Source: Flavobacteriaceae bacterium
Lineage (GTDB): Bacteria > Bacteroidota > Bacteroidia > Flavobacteriales > Flavobacteriaceae
Length of the DNA: 42,207 nucleotides
Reading direction: 5' to 3'
Assembly (NCBI GenBank): GCA_015494075.1
Contig: WGBX01000138.1
Coordinates: 1 to 42,207, forward strand
In this document: positions 16,150 to 28,667 of the stretch, in pieces
How positions within the stretch are numbered: position 1 is the first letter of the stretch
How the letters are laid out: every line of letters begins with the position of its first letter
Made by a program: the position numbers and the translations under genes
The notes under the pieces: generated by a model
Databases searched by the model: none
What the model saw: only the letters and a program-made list of their open reading frames with translations
Told to the model about the DNA's origin: nothing

Positions 16150-16245
16150 AATAAATTTATTTTTTTTCTTTAATTTTTGCCAAATGGTAACATTTATAAC
16201 GGTATAATTAAATATCTTGTTGTAATATTGCAAGCTTGTTTAATA

Positions 16246-18111
16246 ATGTTTATAATGATTACCGAAAAATATTATCGCATATTTGAAGATCGACAAGCCT
16301 ATGAACCTAGTAAATTTAACCTTTGGAAAGATTCTCTTTTTCAGATCGTATCAATAGTGTTTATTTTTGTCGGCTTTGACTACCTTTATTGGCGTTGGAA
16401 TCATTCCATAAATTGGGATGCGACTTGGATTTCTATTCCATTATATTTTGCTGAAATGATGGCTTTTATAGGTTCTATTTTAACCATCATTAATTATTGG
16501 ACACATAAAGATTTACCTTTAAGTAAACCGGTACATTATTTGTCTGAAATTGAAGATTTATCGCCGGAAGAAGCAGATCGTCCTATCAAGATAGACCTGT
16601 ATATTACCACTTATAATGAAGATCTTGCTATTGTAGAGGACACCATTCGTGATGCGAAAAAAGTCACATATCCTTATGATGACGTGGTTATTAATATATG
16701 CCTCTTAGATGATGGACATCGTGATGGGACCAATCCTGATAAAGAAAATTTTAAAGCATTGGCATTGAAATATGATATCAATTACTTTGTGCGCGATAAC
16801 AATATTGGCTTCAAAGCCGGTAATATGAATAATGCATTTTATCAAACTGATGGTGATTTAATTGTAATTTTAGATGCAGATACTCGACTTTTCCCGAATT
16901 TTTTAAACCATACAACCGGCTATTTTAGAAATAAAAAAATGGCTTGGGTGCAAACGCCGCAATGGTTTTATGATATTCCGGCAGGCGTGCCTTTCAATGA
17001 GTATTTGGAAGTAAAATATGGAAAAATTGGAAAAATTACCGGTAAAATTATCCCTTTTTCTAAAAGCTATTTGATTGGTAAAAATGTTTTTGGTACAGAT
17101 CCCGAGTTGTTTTATGATGTTATACTAAGACATAGAAACGCAGCAAATGCAGCTTTTAGTTGTGGCGCAGGATCATTACAACGCCGTAAAGCTTTGTCTG
17201 AATTAGCGATAAAAGAAAAACATGAAATTATTGCTAAAAAAATAAAAGCTATCAAAAAAAAACAGCCTAAAATTGATCAAGATGCTATAAAACAAAAATT
17301 AAATAAAGAAATACCGTTACGACCATTTGTACATCATATTTCAGAAGATATTTTGACTTCAATTTTATTGCATTCCGATCCTGAAAAATGGCAATCATAT
17401 CAACATCCGATTGTAGAATGTAAAATGTTGTCGCCACAATCATTTGATATTTTTATCAAACAATTTTCACGATATGCCGAAGGTACAATTGATATTACTT
17501 TTAGTAAGCATAATCCTCTTTTTAAAAAAGGCATGACTTTAAGGCAACGTTTGGCATATCTCGAAACAATATGGTCATATTTATCGCCATTATGGTTGTT
17601 GATTTTTGTCTTATATCCCATTGTGTTTTTCTTTACACTTATTCCACCTTTAAAAGCATTTAGTTTTGATTTTTTTGTAAGAATTGTACCATTTTTAATG
17701 CTTAATGTAATTGTTACAGCTGTGGGTAACTGGGGTAAGCCCACCAAAAGGCCCGAACAATTTTATCAAGCCGGTTTTTGGTACAAGTTGCAAGCACTAT
17801 ACAAGGTTTTAATTAAAGGAAAAGTTAAATTTAATGTGACCAGCAAAAGTGTAAAATACAGTCAGTCAAATTTAAAACATGTTTGGCCGCATTTAGCCAT
17901 ATTTATTTTGACATTTTTAGGCATTTGCTATAACTTATATTTAGTATATAAAGGAAGTCATCCTTCATATTCGGCCTTTTTTGCCAATATTTTTTGGAGT
18001 GTGTTTACATTTTATTTGATTTCACCTTTTGTAAGGGCAGCTTATTGGAATGAAAAATTGTTTAAGAAATCATTAGAACATTATCTCAAACAAAAAACTA
18101 AAAACAAATAG
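16246..18111 (+). CDS. Family 2 glycosyltransferase, cellulose-synthase-like integral membrane protein
   Basis: YITTYNED, CLLDDGHRDG, LDADTRLFPNFL, TPQWFY, SEDILTS, QFSRYAEG plus multiple TM helices; no PilZ domain. Start moved from TTG 16177 to ATG 16246 (16255 also possible). Confidence 0.85.
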   Translation: MFIMITEKYYRIFEDRQAYEPSKFNLWKDSLFQIVSIVFIFVGFDYLYWRWNHSINWDATWISIPLYFAEMMAFIGSILTIINYWTHKDLPLSKPVHYLSEIEDLSPEEADRPIKIDLYITTYNEDLAIVEDTIRDAKKVTYPYDDVVINICLLDDGHRDGTNPDKENFKALALKYDINYFVRDNNIGFKAGNMNNAFYQTDGDLIVILDADTRLFPNFLNHTTGYFRNKKMAWVQTPQWFYDIPAGVPFNEYLEVKYGKIGKITGKIIPFSKSYLIGKNVFGTDPELFYDVILRHRNAANAAFSCGAGSLQRRKALSELAIKEKHEIIAKKIKAIKKKQPKIDQDAIKQKLNKEIPLRPFVHHISEDILTSILLHSDPEKWQSYQHPIVECKMLSPQSFDIFIKQFSRYAEGTIDITFSKHNPLFKKGMTLRQRLAYLETIWSYLSPLWLLIFVLYPIVFFFTLIPPLKAFSFDFFVRIVPFLMLNVIVTAVGNWGKPTKRPEQFYQAGFWYKLQALYKVLIKGKVKFNVTSKSVKYSQSNLKHVWPHLAIFILTFLGICYNLYLVYKGSHPSYSAFFANIFWSVFTFYLISPFVRAAYWNEKLFKKSLEHYLKQKTKNK

Positions 18112-18119
18112 TTTAAAAT

Positions 18120-19502
18120 ATGAAAATAGTAATTGATTTAGTTAAAATCGGGCAGTTTTTAAAAAAATTAGTTAAACCCATTGTGATGCTGACAGCATTT
18201 TATTTGGGAGCTAATGCCGTTTTATTTATTGAAAAAGCACGACCTTCCGATTTTGGATTTTATAAGGATATATTTTCTAAGGAAATGGTAATTAAGCCTT
18301 CCAAATCTTATCCTATGCGACAATATGGTGATAGTTTGTCAGCACAAGACTGGCAAGATGCCAAAACAGCTTGGCGATATTTTGAAAATAATTATCAAGA
18401 AAAAACCGGTTTATTTAATAGCGTCAATCAATATCCGGCAACAACCTTTTGGGATATCAGCAGTTCTTTACATGCTTTAATGAGTGCTCATCAAATTGGA
18501 TTGATAAGTTCGAAAGAATTTCGTCAAAAAATGACAAAAGCTTTAAATTCAATCAATCATTTTCAACTTTTTGAAGGACAGTTACCTAATAAAGTTTATA
18601 GTACAGAAACTTTGGCAATGGTTGATTATTCTAATCATATTACCCAAGAAGGCGTTGGTTGGTCCGCAATGGATGTAGGTCGATTTTTGGGTGCAATTTC
18701 ACGCATTCGTAAATTCTATCCCGAATTTACGGCAGTAACAGATAGTATTGTTTCAAAATGGCATATCAATAAAATTTTAGGCACCGATGCTACTTTGCAT
18801 GGTATCGGTTTTAGTTTTAAAGATAAGAGAGCCAAAATAGTACAAGAAGGTAAGCTGGGCTATGAAGAATATGCCTCAAAAGGATACATAGTAAATGCTT
18901 ACGACGCATCCGAATCATACAGATATACAGATTTTATAAAGTTTATAGATATTTATGGTATAGAAATTGGTGCTGATACACGTGAAGTTAAATACCATCC
19001 GGCTTATAATTTTGTATTATCAGAACCTTATATTTTAGATGGTTTAGAGTATGGTTTTGATATCAATTCTCGTGAATTAGCATATCGTTTGTATAAAGTA
19101 CAAAAAAAACGCTATAAAAAAACCGGAATTCCTGTTGCTGTATCCGAAGATCATATAGATAGTGCCCCCTATTTTGTTTATAATTCTGTATATGCCAATG
19201 GAAAAACTTGGGTATGTTATGCCGAAAACGGTGACGAAGCTAATGAATTTAAACAGTTTTCAACAAAAGCCGCTTATGCTTGGGCAACATTGTTTAAAGA
19301 TGATTACAGTCCTGTTTTAAAACAAAGTATCAAAGAATTAAATGACCCCGAAAAAGGATGGTATGCAGGACGTTATGATAAAGATGGTAAAATAAATACC
19401 GTTTTAACAGCCAATACAAATGGTGTAATATTGGAAGCTATAACTTATAAATTAATGGGACCGATCAATCGAATAAATTATCAAAAGAAAAAAGAGAAAT
19501 GA
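18120..19502 (+). CDS. DUF3131 domain-containing protein, N-terminally membrane-anchored
   Basis: TM near N-terminus (IVMLTAFYLGANAVLFI); TTFWDISSSLHALMSAHQIGLIS, GVGWSAMDVGRFLGAI, YEEYASKGYIVNAYDAS motifs of this glycoside-hydrolase-like family. Confidence 0.75.
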   Translation: MKIVIDLVKIGQFLKKLVKPIVMLTAFYLGANAVLFIEKARPSDFGFYKDIFSKEMVIKPSKSYPMRQYGDSLSAQDWQDAKTAWRYFENNYQEKTGLFNSVNQYPATTFWDISSSLHALMSAHQIGLISSKEFRQKMTKALNSINHFQLFEGQLPNKVYSTETLAMVDYSNHITQEGVGWSAMDVGRFLGAISRIRKFYPEFTAVTDSIVSKWHINKILGTDATLHGIGFSFKDKRAKIVQEGKLGYEEYASKGYIVNAYDASESYRYTDFIKFIDIYGIEIGADTREVKYHPAYNFVLSEPYILDGLEYGFDINSRELAYRLYKVQKKRYKKTGIPVAVSEDHIDSAPYFVYNSVYANGKTWVCYAENGDEANEFKQFSTKAAYAWATLFKDDYSPVLKQSIKELNDPEKGWYAGRYDKDGKINTVLTANTNGVILEAITYKLMGPINRINYQKKKEK

Positions 19503-20362
19503 AAAAAGTATTAATATCATGGACAATGCTGCTGAGCTTTCAAATGGGTTTTGCACAAGGTTTTTTTAATGACAGCGGACAATCTGCAACAATGCAAGAT
19601 GTTTTACATCTAGATTGCTGTTTTTTAGGACAATATAAAATAAGTGGTGCTATTAGCACATTTTACAACAAAATTACTTACGAATCAGCAGATTTTAATT
19701 ATGTAGATTATGATAGGTACGGAATAAGTTTTAATATTAATGCCAAATTTTATAAAGAGCTACAATTACGCTTGTCGTTATTTGCAGATTTAAATCAAGA
19801 TGAAAACAAACCACAATGGCTTTCAAATTTTTATTATGCTTTTGGCTATTATAATTGGCGTAATAAAACCTTCTCTTATGGTTATGAAAATTATCAACCC
19901 AATCGTTTTGACGGTTCTTATAATCTCATTGACAATTTAAAACGCGGTTTCTTTTTTATCAGTTATAATTATTACCTTATAGGAGATAGTAACCTTTTAA
20001 AAACCGACGAAACAGCACAAATATACATATCACCTTTTATAAGATATCAGCCGGAATATACCAACCGTTACGGAACGGCAGTTTTAGGAAATAATAAAAT
20101 AACATTAGGAACATCAACACGTTATGTTATTTGGCATAATTTTTATGTAGAAGGCGCTGTATATTTTTATCCGCAATCAGGAACAGAAATGCCTTGGGAT
20201 CCGGATTATACATATGGATTTGGCTATTTTGATTGGAAAAGTTTCAAACTCAATTTTAGTTATGGTAATTGGATTGCCAATCGCTTTCCGGGGCATGAAA
20301 AAGAAACGAAAAATGATTTTACCAATGGCGAATTTAAATTGTCGTTCAGTTACATTTGGTAA
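19499..20362 (+). CDS. Putative outer-membrane beta-barrel protein
   Basis: Signal peptide MKKVLISWTMLLSFQMGFAQ; alternating aromatic/polar strands; C-terminal GEFKLSFSYIW ending in an aromatic residue; ATGA overlap with the DUF3131 gene. Confidence 0.72.
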   Translation: MKKVLISWTMLLSFQMGFAQGFFNDSGQSATMQDVLHLDCCFLGQYKISGAISTFYNKITYESADFNYVDYDRYGISFNINAKFYKELQLRLSLFADLNQDENKPQWLSNFYYAFGYYNWRNKTFSYGYENYQPNRFDGSYNLIDNLKRGFFFISYNYYLIGDSNLLKTDETAQIYISPFIRYQPEYTNRYGTAVLGNNKITLGTSTRYVIWHNFYVEGAVYFYPQSGTEMPWDPDYTYGFGYFDWKSFKLNFSYGNWIANRFPGHEKETKNDFTNGEFKLSFSYIW

Positions 20363-20461
20363 AAATCAAATATCATTAATTTTTGATATAATATATAATG
20401 TATCATTTAGTTAAAAGAAAAGCTGATTTTAGTTTTTATAGAAAAAAATGATTAAAAAAAC

Positions 20462-20490
20462 TTGTATATTTACAAAGTTTTTTATTTTTG
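20462..20490 (+). promoter_or_regulatory. Candidate promoter for acpP
   Basis: TTG (20462-20464), 18-nt spacer, TATTTTTG (20483-20490); 30 nt upstream of the MSDIASRV start. Confidence 0.5.
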
Positions 20491-20520
20491 CCGAACATTA
20501 ATCAATTAAAAATAAATATT

Positions 20521-20757
20521 ATGTCTGACATTGCATCAAGAGTAAAAGCAATTATCGTTGACAAATTAGGTGTTGACGAAAACGATGTAACCCCCGAAGC
20601 TAACTTTACAACTGACCTAGGGGCTGATTCACTTGACACAGTTGAATTAATTATGGAGTTTGAAAAAGAATTTGATATTCAAATCCCTGATGATCAAGCT
20701 GAACAAATCCAAACTGTGGGTCAAGCAATCAAATACATTGAAGAAGCCTTAAATTAA
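20521..20757 (+). CDS. acpP: Acyl carrier protein
   Basis: [21 protein letters not shown]...[30 protein letters not shown] phosphopantetheine site. Start corrected from TTG 20488. Confidence 0.97.
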
Positions 20758-24274: not shown

Positions 24275-25624
24275 ATGAAAATAACTGTTGTTGGTACGGG
24301 TTATGTAGGTTTAGTAACCGGAACATGTTTTGCCGAATCGGGAAATAAAGTTACCTGTATAGATATTAATGCAGAAAAAGTAGCAAAAATGCAAGCAGGG
24401 AGTATCCCTATTTATGAGCCCGGTTTAGAAACACTTTTTAAACGTAACATTAAAGCAGGTCGTTTGCAGTTTTCGACAGATTTAAAGGAAGGCGTTGATT
24501 TTGGAGATATTATTTTTTTGGCATTACCCACACCTGAAGATGAGGATGGTTCAGCCGATTTGTCTTATGTGAAAGATGTGGCTGCCAAAATAGGAGATTT
24601 AATAGCTCAAAATCCGGAAGCAGATTACAAAATTATAGTTAATAAAAGTACTGTTCCCGTTGGTACAGCAGAAATAGTTACCAATATACTCAAAGAACGT
24701 ACCGATAAAACCTTCGATGTCGTTTCTAATCCTGAATTTTTACGGGAAGGTTTTGCCGTTGAAGACTTTATGAAGCCCGAACGTATTGTGATTGGTACAG
24801 ATAGCGAAAAGGCTCGTAATGTTATGAAACAACTATACGAACCTTTTGTTCGCTCTGGCAATCCCATTATAATGATGGATCAACGATCAGCCGAAATAAC
24901 CAAATATGCCGCCAACTCTTTTTTAGCATTGAAAATTACTTTTATGAACGAAATTGCCAATTTTGCCGAAAAAGTAGGTGCTGATGTTGATAAAATACGT
25001 ATTGGTATGGGATCTGACTCGCGGATTGGCAAACGGTTTTTATTTCCCGGTATCGGATATGGCGGTTCTTGTTTTCCGAAAGATGTCAAAGCTTTATATA
25101 AAACCGGTTTAGATCATCAGCATGAATTTAAGCTTTTAAAATCAGTCATAGAGGTTAATGATCGTCAAAAAACCATTTTAGTTCCTAAAATAAAAGCACA
25201 TTTGGGCGATTTAAAAGGAAAGAAAATTGCTATTTGGGGATTGGCTTTTAAGCCTGAAACGGATGATATTAGGGAAGCACCGGCTTTATATATGATTGAT
25301 GAACTATTGAAAGAAGGCGCTGAACTAACTGTTTTTGATCCGGAAGCCATGGAAAATGTCCGCCAAAAGTATGCTCAGAAGTTGCAATATGCTACCGATA
25401 TGTATGAAGCCTTAGAGCAAGCCGATGCATTAGTTATTAGTACAGAATGGAATGTTTTCAGAACTCCCGATTTTGTTGAAATTAAAAAACGTTTAAAACA
25501 ACCCGTTATATTTGATGGTCGAAATTTATATAAGCCGGAACGTTTGCAAGAAAAAGGGTTTGATTATTTTTCAATAGGCCGAAAAGCTGTAAAGATTCCC
25601 CGAAAATTATGGAAAGAGTTTTAA
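24275..25624 (+). CDS. ugd: UDP-glucose 6-dehydrogenase
   Basis: [52 protein letters not shown] catalytic Cys; [15 protein letters not shown]. Confidence 0.96.
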
Positions 25625-26595
25625 TAACAGGTGCTGCCGGATTTTTAGGATCACATTTGTGTGATAAGTTTTTAAAAGAAGGCTTTGAAGTTATAGGGAT
25701 GGACAATTTTTTGACCGGATCGCCTAAAAATATTCGCCATTTAATAAATCATCCTCATTTTACTTTTATAGAGCACGATGTTACGAAATTTATAGATATT
25801 CAAGGGAGTTTAAATTACATTTTACATTTTGCTTCACCGGCAAGTCCAATAGACTATCTTCGGATACCTATTCAAACACTAAAAGTGGGCTCTTTAGGTA
25901 TTCATAAAGTATTAGGCTTGGCAAAAGCAAAAAAAGCCCGTGTTTTGATTGCATCAACATCTGAGGTTTACGGTGACCCACTCACACACCCTCAAACCGA
26001 AGAATATTTTGGCAATGTAAACCCTATTGGTCCTCGAGGTGTCTACGATGAAGCTAAACGTTTTCAGGAAGCTATGACCATGGCTTATCATAATTTTCAT
26101 AATATCAGTACCCGAATTGTCAGGATATTTAATACCTACGGGCCCCGAATGCGCCTAAATGACGGCCGTGTCATTCCGGCTTTTATGGGACAAATTTTAC
26201 GTGGCGAAGATTTAACGGTTTTTGGTGATGGCAGCCAAACCCGTTCGTTTTGTTATGTTGATGATCAAATTAATGGGATTTTTAAATTGTTGTTTTCAGA
26301 TTACCATTTACCGGTTAATATAGGCAACCCGGAAGAAATATCTATCTTGGATTTTGCTAAAGAAATTATAAGGCTAACCAATGGGCAATCAAAAATAATT
26401 TTTAAAGATCTGCCTGTTAACGATCCGCTGCAAAGATGCCCTGATATCAGCAAAGCACAAAGAATACTTGGATGGACACCAAAGGTTGACCGCATCGAAG
26501 GCATGCGACAGACTTTTGAATATTTTAAATCTTTAAGTCATGAAGAACTTTATCAAACTGACTATAAAAACTTTGAAGCTTTTATAAAAAAATAA
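25609..26595 (+). CDS. UDP-glucuronate decarboxylase (UDP-xylose synthase), SDR family
   Basis: [85 protein letters not shown]. Confidence 0.9.
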
Positions 26596-27944
26596 TGAGC
26601 TATAAACAAACACATCGCTTTTCATTTTTGCTATTACCTATCATTTACTTGATAGATAGTACACTTATTTTTTTGTTGCTAACGCGTTTTCAAATATCAC
26701 GTCATTTACTATTTGGATTTATTACATTGAATATTGTTTGGTTTATTATTTCTTATTTCACCAAGTTTTATGAGATATACAGAAATACAAAACCGGCAGA
26801 AATTATCAGCAAAACCTTAAATCAACTCTTTATTTTTGATTTGGTAATTGTCGCTTTTTTTCATTTTTTAAAATTAAGATTTCCGGATACTTTTTTACTT
26901 AAAAATTTGCTGATATTTGATTTCAGCCTTTTGTTTATTAAGCTCATTATTTACCTTGTTTTGAAATTTTATCGTTTTAAAGGGGGCAATATCAGAACAT
27001 ATTTAATTGTAGGATATAATAATGAAACCTTAAAGTTTAAAAAATTATTAGACAAGCGTCCCGATTTTGGCTATAAGTTTGATAGTTTTTTTGGAAATGA
27101 AACAGAACTACAAAGTCATTTTGATGATTTAAAAAACTATTTGTCTAAAAATCCGGTAGATGTTATTTTTTGTTCATTGAAAGAATGTACCGATGCACAA
27201 ATAAAAGAATTAATTATTTATGCAAATGATCATTTTATGGCGGTTAAGTTTATTCCTGATAATAAGGAAATTTTAGGCAAAAACTTAAAAGTTGATTATT
27301 TTGATTACTTTCCGGTTTTGTCTTTAAACAGGTCTCCTTTGACCAAACCGGTTAATAAAATTATTAAAAGAGTTTTTGATCTCGTTTTTTCTACTTTAAT
27401 TATTATTACTGTTTTATGGTGGTTGATTCCTATTTTAGGGTTAATTATCAAATTGGAATCCAAAGGCCCTATTTTGTTTAAACAAAAAAGAAACGGGATA
27501 AATTATAAGCCGTTTTATTGTTATAAATTTCGTTCAATGCGCCCTAATAAAATGGCCGATTTAAAGCAAGTTAGTAAAAATGATCATCGTGTAACTACAG
27601 TTGGTCGTTTTCTACGTAAAACCAGCATTGACGAATTGCCACAATTTTTAAATGTTTTTAAAGGAGATATGTCTGTTGTCGGTCCAAGGCCGCACATGAT
27701 TAAAGAAAATGAGCGTTTTTTAAAACGGGTTGATAAATTTAGAAGTCGCCATTATATCAAACCCGGAATTACCGGTTTAGCTCAAGTTAAAGGTTACAGA
27801 GGCGAAGTTAAAACAGATGAAGACATAATTAACCGTATTAAATATGATATTTTTTATATTGAAAACTGGTCTTTATGGTTAGATGTTAAAATTATTTTAT
27901 TGACTGTTTATAATTTAATAAAAGGGGAAGAAAAAGCTTACTAA
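26595..27944 (+). CDS. Undecaprenyl-phosphate sugar phosphotransferase (WcaJ/WbaP-like)
   Basis: N-terminal TM segments; [81 protein letters not shown]. Confidence 0.92.
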
Positions 27945-27950
27945 ATAATT

Positions 27951-28667
27951 ATGCACAAAAATTTAGTTATCATACCAACATATAATGAAAAGGAAAATTT
28001 ACCCGACATTATTCCTTATGTTTTGCAATTAAAAAAAACTTTCGATATTTTGGTTGTTGATGATAGTTCACCTGACGGAACCGCAACAGTTGTTAAGCGT
28101 TTGCAACAACAGTTTCCAAACAGGTTACATTTATTAAGCAGGCCTCAGAAACAAGGTTTGGGCAAAGCCTATATAGCCGGATTTAAGTGGGCTTTAGCAC
28201 GTTCTTATGAATATATATTTGAAATGGATGCAGATTTTTCGCATCCTCCTGATAAACTAATAGATTTGTTAAAAGTCTTAGAAGATAATGATGCTGATGT
28301 TAGTGTTGGATCGAGATATTTAAAAGGAAAAATAAATGTGGTTAATTGGGATTTAAAACGCATTTTATTGTCTTATTTTGCATCATTATATGTAAGAATA
28401 ATAACAGGACTGCCGGTAAAAGATACTACAGCTGGTTTTGTGGGCTATAAAAAGGATGTTTTACAGGCTTTTGATTTTAATAAAATTGATTTTGTCGGCT
28501 ATGCTTTTCAAATTGAAATGAAATATCTGGCTTGGAAAAAAGGTTTTAAAATTAAAGAAATTCCTATCGTTTTTACAGATCGTGTCAAAGGAAAATCAAA
28601 GATGAACAGTGGCATTATTACAGAAGCTGTTTGGGGTGTGTTAAAAATGCGCTTAAAAAAAACTTAA
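27951..28667 (+). CDS. Polyprenol monophosphomannose synthase / DPM1-like GT2
   Basis: LVIIPTYNEKENLPDIIPYVL; ILVVDDSSPDGTATVV; GLGKAYIAGFKWAL; EMDADFSHPPDKL; DTTAGFVGYKK. Confidence 0.9.
   Translation: MHKNLVIIPTYNEKENLPDIIPYVLQLKKTFDILVVDDSSPDGTATVVKRLQQQFPNRLHLLSRPQKQGLGKAYIAGFKWALARSYEYIFEMDADFSHPPDKLIDLLKVLEDNDADVSVGSRYLKGKINVVNWDLKRILLSYFASLYVRIITGLPVKDTTAGFVGYKKDVLQAFDFNKIDFVGYAFQIEMKYLAWKKGFKIKEIPIVFTDRVKGKSKMNSGIITEAVWGVLKMRLKKT

Follow-up and report, generated by a model that had tools for sequence, protein, structure and literature searches.

A three-gene cassette of a BcsA-like GT2 synthase, a DUF3131 protein and a predicted small outer-membrane barrel in a marine flavobacterial genus

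The Bcs system (BcsA-BcsB-BcsZ-BcsC) brings together a processive inner-membrane GT2 glycosyltransferase with a gating loop, a periplasmic (α/α)6-type protein and an outer-membrane barrel. Known polysaccharide exporter barrels have 16–18 strands. Cyclic glucan synthases pair a membrane glycosyltransferase with a domain of the clan GH-S type, and the osmoregulated periplasmic glucan (OPG) system (OpgH/OpgG/OpgD/OpgC) uses a GT2 synthase and periplasmic processing proteins. Here we describe a cassette that shares features with each of the three systems. An earlier note on this DNA had presented the cassette as possibly uncharacterised, and no description of the system, nor any published operon of the same composition, was found in the open-access papers searched. 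The term DUF3131 occurs in three papers of that set, none of which addresses its function. The zetaproteobacterial stalk (sfz) cluster, considered as a published equivalent, was ruled out because it encodes a BcsB-like protein and its GT2 is built differently (PMC8250860).

Layout of the cassette and its distribution within the order

The window (the whole stretch of 42,207 nucleotides that was analyzed) contains the following features:

16150..20522, + strand: cassette-holding interval from gldD to acpP, empty in the close relative G001
16255..18111, + strand: BcsA-like processive GT2 synthase, 618 aa when read from the likely ATG start (644 aa with TTG 16177)
18120..19502, + strand: DUF3131 (PF11329) protein with an N-terminal membrane anchor and a predicted (α/α) barrel of the clan GH-S type
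19499..20362, + strand: predicted 12-stranded outer-membrane β-barrel with a signal peptide and an internal duplication, 287 aa

An ORF check of the window recovered all three reading frames at the coordinates given in the earlier note and reproduced the tight, co-directional packing reported there: 8 nt separate the GT2 stop from the DUF3131 start, and an ATGA overlap joins the DUF3131 and barrel ORFs. The GT2 reading frame itself (16177–18111) stands, but its proposed start at TTG 16177 is doubtful. Because alignments of orthologues begin only at residues 12–27, mostly 25–27, the true start is probably ATG 16255. Elsewhere in the window, downstream of fabF and rnc, genes for a UDP-glucose dehydrogenase, an epimerase-type sugar-nucleotide enzyme, a bacterial sugar transferase and a GT2 lie in a row (24275–28667), likely a separate surface-polysaccharide locus.

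Of 13 genomes from the genus, the same six contain the GT2, DUF3131 and barrel genes, and the other seven lack all three. In G001, whose gene order matches, ~140 bp separate gldD from acpP, leaving a clean empty site. Given this joint presence and absence and the empty site, the three genes constitute one portable unit. Among 47 other genomes from the family and the order, none yielded a full-length DUF3131 or a barrel, the few weak DUF3131 matches there being partial; within the order, as sampled by these and the 13 genus genomes, the cassette is confined to one genus. The scattered distribution, together with the empty site, suggests that the cassette was gained horizontally, with loss in the other lineages as the alternative.

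Two individual loci deserve mention. The aligned GT2 stretch of one genome (G011 C59:8688-10556, L125) contains one in-frame TAA, which could stem from a sequencing error, from a boundary effect or from a genuine defect. In one MAG (L041 and L093; JALWLE010000042 and JALWLE010000060), the GT2 gene lies at the end of one contig and the DUF3131 and barrel genes at the end of another, an assembly break inside the cassette.

Sequence features and predicted folds of the three proteins

The GT2 protein matches the Pfam families Glycos_transf_2 and Cellulose_synt, and in a family profile comparison it aligns with BcsA over the whole catalytic and transmembrane region (3.3e-61). It has about six transmembrane helices and carries the DAD, SED and gating-loop FNVTSK (FxVTxK) motifs; residues F552, T555, K557, D233 and D235 are invariant. 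Where QxxRW is expected, the window protein has QFSRY (QxxRY), with the Tyr invariant in 10/10 aligned family members, and this replacement of the Trp may reflect a different acceptor or sugar. The protein scores 215.8 bits, below the curated BcsA/CelA cut-off of 699.1, and its match to OpgH (MdoH) is marginal. It contains no PilZ domain, and a search of the host genome, which has an estimated completeness of 94.6%, found no BcsB, PilZ or GGDEF. This supports the earlier view of a BcsA-like, PilZ-free synthase that lacks BcsB and c-di-GMP control. Since the sub-threshold score, the altered QxxRW motif and the absence of BcsB and PilZ all set it apart, the cassette falls outside the Bcs system, even if its sequence allows it to be likened to synthase-dependent secretion.

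The DUF3131 protein matches PF11329 at 1.8e-128 (Pfam). Its N-terminal membrane anchor, which the earlier note had also described, is predicted at approximately residues 17–35, and the barrel domain is presumably periplasmic. The structure model (pLDDT 90.4, pTM 0.85) has as its nearest predicted folds the clan GH-S β-1,2-glucanases and the cyclization domain of cyclic glucan synthase: ranks 1–18 of a PDB fold search are occupied by β-1,2-glucanases, cyclic glucan synthases and putative glucoamylases of that kind. BcsZ ranks only 19th, behind clan GH-S, and a GH8, BcsZ-like assignment was ruled out. This corrects the comparison with GH8 BcsZ in the earlier note.

Profile comparisons point in the same direction as the model for the N-terminal half of the protein, where the DUF3131 profile is similar to GH144-like proteins (8.6e-12); it also aligns with the cyclic glucan synthase domain (GH189; fragments) at 4.3e-7 over 161 columns. 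The clan-defining residues sought in DUF3131 were Glu, Phe and Tyr (E239, F286 and Y367 in XcSGL). In sequence-profile alignments, D185 lines up with the VETAFL stretch of GH144-like proteins and with the STVDSGNL aspartate of GH189, which would place an acidic residue at the position of CpSGL E142. D185 is >90% conserved, and the acidic position aligned with it is reported to be catalytic in EeSGL1 and PgSGL3 (PMC12102758). The C-terminal half gave no profile alignment with clan GH-S (hhalign), and E243 and E250 are no more than candidates for the clan catalytic Glu. DUF3131 would therefore agree with clan GH-S in its predicted fold and in one aligned catalytic position. Weak DUF3131 matches were also seen inside ORFs of ~2900 aa that resemble cyclic β-1,2-glucan synthases (L017, L023, L025, L027 and L031), which we read as an early sign, at the sequence level, of the link to clan GH-S.

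Sequence searches with the barrel protein gave no match in Pfam, NCBIfam or the PDB. A signal peptide is predicted, and the AlphaFold2 model of the 287-aa protein (mean pLDDT 85.6, pTM 0.77) folds as a barrel, as had been anticipated, with 12 strands, below the 16–18 of the BcsC, PgaA and AlgE exporters, and is narrower. A fold search gives it only weak matches (TM ~0.4; AlgE, TM 0.29). A repeated motif, PDxTYxFGYxDW...YxNYxxNRF, marks an internal duplication. Among the gammaproteobacterial barrels sampled, homology between the two halves is clear (local scores of 217–253 versus a shuffle maximum of 66), and the halves of the window barrel show weaker homology (84 versus 72 for the highest of 1000 shuffles). 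Divergent barrels with 14–23% identity to the window protein are present in Thiotrichaceae and Sulfurovaceae (L086, L092 and L094), one of them preceded by a 1002-aa double DUF3131 protein.

Related loci in other phyla

Scanning 84,980 species genomes yielded 55 loci, 54 of them with a DUF3131 gene, so that 55 DUF3131-holding loci were counted with the window included; ORFs in the scanned loci were called by script, since the plasmid regions of Vibrio and Nostoc carry no annotated features. Within the sampled flanks, a GT2 accompanies DUF3131 in 53/55 loci and a barrel in 47/55, the latter being a lower bound because most of the eight barrel-less loci lie on short contigs. The GT2 gene directly precedes a DUF3131 gene in 51 of the 55 loci, and a DUF3131 gene directly precedes the barrel in 20. 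The association of the three genes is beyond chance, and the co-occurrence in other genomes for which the earlier note had proposed to look is real. Loci that combine homologues of all three occur in Vibrio, Photobacterium, Shewanella, Desulfoluna, Kapaibacteria and Sulfurovaceae, and the DUF3131 family ranges from Nostoc to plasmid or accessory loci of Salmonella and Klebsiella. The conserved three-gene set was thus confirmed. The cassette is not specific to Bacteroidota, and most of its relatives are Pseudomonadota with larger clusters that contain 3–4 DUF3131 genes.

Across the scanned loci, three DUF3131 paralogues were found in 29 and four in 11. The larger clusters usually also encode a partner switch, consisting of a SpoIIE-type response-regulator phosphatase, a STAS protein and a HATPase kinase, along with a nucleotidyltransferase, GH2, GH9 and sometimes GH16 enzymes; OpgC or another acyltransferase is present in some. 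Of these enzymes, the nucleotidyltransferase is very close to a solved UTP-glucose-1-phosphate uridylyltransferase (9.8e-123), and the GH9 has its matches among endoglucanases, from which we infer that the larger-cluster enzymes point to a glucose-containing β-glucan. In a Salmonella enterica plasmid locus (L096, 7133-17265), a globin gene adjoins a GT2, three DUF3131 genes, OpgC and partner-switch regulators, and in Pseudooceanicola (L100, 2259-11359) a heme NO-binding protein adjoins the cluster; these neighbors suggest sensing of NO or oxygen.

In the DUF3131 tree, copies 2, 3 and 4 form their own groups and the flavobacterial protein lies among the sequences of copy 1, the type that adjoins the GT2 in other loci. 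The tree does not resolve it, within copy 1, to any donor lineage. In copy 1, to which the window protein belongs, acidic and aromatic residues of the kind typical for a sugar-cleft enzyme are strictly conserved. In paralogue type 4, Q replaces E in the GYEEY motif and the acidic pair is gone, yet the gene still adjoins the barrel; going by these sequences, some DUF3131 members may only bind glycan, without catalysis. Because the flavobacterial protein belongs with copy 1 and the clusters elsewhere carry multiple paralogues, the window cassette represents a reduction of the larger cluster that occurs in Pseudomonadota, Thermodesulfobacteriota, Campylobacterota and Kapaibacteria. The compact device of the earlier note is accordingly a three-gene set here, but a pared-down version of a bigger multi-DUF3131 system rather than a full system.

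Proposed mechanism, alternatives and comparison with known systems

We propose, with a probability of roughly 60%, that the cassette is a minimal synthase-dependent module in which a β-glucan is made, trimmed or rearranged in the periplasm and passed out via the small duplicated barrel. The analysis shows that the genes are linked and are present or absent together, and it gives their homologies and predicted folds; from these onward we infer the UDP-glucose donor, the β-glucan product, processing by DUF3131 and export through the barrel. Going by its motifs, the inner-membrane GT2 would polymerize a UDP-sugar, most likely UDP-glucose, and would thread the chain across the inner membrane in a BcsA-like manner, without BcsB or c-di-GMP control. 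The membrane-anchored DUF3131 protein, by its predicted fold a relative of the clan GH-S β-1,2-glucanases and glucanotransferases, would then trim or rearrange the chain in the periplasm, and the predicted 12-stranded duplicated barrel would serve as the outer-membrane exit for the chain or its fragments.

A different role for the same proteins would be the synthesis of a periplasmic glucan, possibly cyclic or of the osmoregulated type, with the GT2 building the backbone, DUF3131 acting as a GH189-like glucanotransferase or cyclase, and the barrel serving as a slow-release pore or as an outer-membrane protein with a structural or enzymatic function, with no dedicated exporter. The resemblance of DUF3131 to the GH189 cyclization domain in both profile and fold fits this reading, as do the OpgC-type acyltransferases, which substitute periplasmic glucans, in several clusters including that of Klebsiella (PMC12974863), and the co-expression module that DUF3131 genes form under salt shock in Shewanella piezotolerans (PMC8371737). 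We nevertheless consider it rather doubtful: the window cassette contains no acyltransferase, its GT2 is of the BcsA type and not of the OpgH or GT84 type, and a purely periplasmic product needs no dedicated outer-membrane barrel, yet nearly every locus has one.

DUF3131 might instead be a non-enzymatic periplasmic scaffold or glycan-binding guide that replaces BcsB or the TPR part of BcsC between the synthase and the barrel. We hold this to be unlikely given that copy 1 retains its sugar-cleft residues, including D185 at the aligned clan acid position, even though the 3–4 paralogues per cluster, the altered type 4 beside the barrel and the absence of β-1,2-glucanase activity in the clan relative PgSGL4 (PMC12102758) are in keeping with it. 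It is more improbable still that the product is true cellulose, made with the help of unusual accessory proteins. Cellulose synthases are the closest to the GT2, and GH9 endoglucanases occur in the wider clusters, but the GT2 score lies far under the cellulose-synthase cut-off, the QxxRW Trp is replaced by an invariant Tyr, the genome has neither BcsB nor PilZ, and the accessory hydrolase-like protein is nearer to β-1,2-glucanases than to GH8.

Beyond the export module itself, we tentatively suggest, with less than even confidence, that the cassette represents a widespread, previously undescribed secretion class in which a BcsA-like synthase is combined with dedicated clan GH-S enzymes (1–4 DUF3131 paralogues) and with a small barrel of 12 strands that arose by duplication, with a β-1,2-linked or mixed-linkage, possibly remodelled, exopolysaccharide as its product and a three-gene form in one marine flavobacterial genus. 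DUF3131, so far a family with no assigned function, is now tied to a specific synthase, a barrel and clan GH-S, so that its substrate and role become directly testable, and the flavobacterial version is the simplest form for expression. If export is true, the set of synthase, processing enzyme and outer-membrane protein would be unusually small.

In comparison with Bcs, the cassette occurs in a genome without BcsB, PilZ or GGDEF, its barrel has no TPR part and 12 strands rather than 16, its accessory protein is of the clan GH-S type rather than GH8, and QxxRY takes the place of QxxRW. It resembles cyclic glucan synthases in the alignment of DUF3131 with GH189, D185 included, but the GT2 and DUF3131 are separate polypeptides, the GT2 is of the BcsA type and not GT84, no GH94 partner gene adjoins, and there is an additional outer-membrane barrel; Glycoamylase (PF10091) has no match in the host genome. 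Unlike the OPG system, with which some relatives share OpgC, the cassette has a barrel and no OpgG/OpgD gene, and its GT2 matches OpgH only marginally. Finally, the DUF3131 model shares its fold and the similarity of its N-terminal half with the SGL clan (GH144, GH162, GH189 and GH192–194; GH-S), but DUF3131 has ~10–15% identity to these enzymes, is membrane-anchored and is genetically tied to a synthase.
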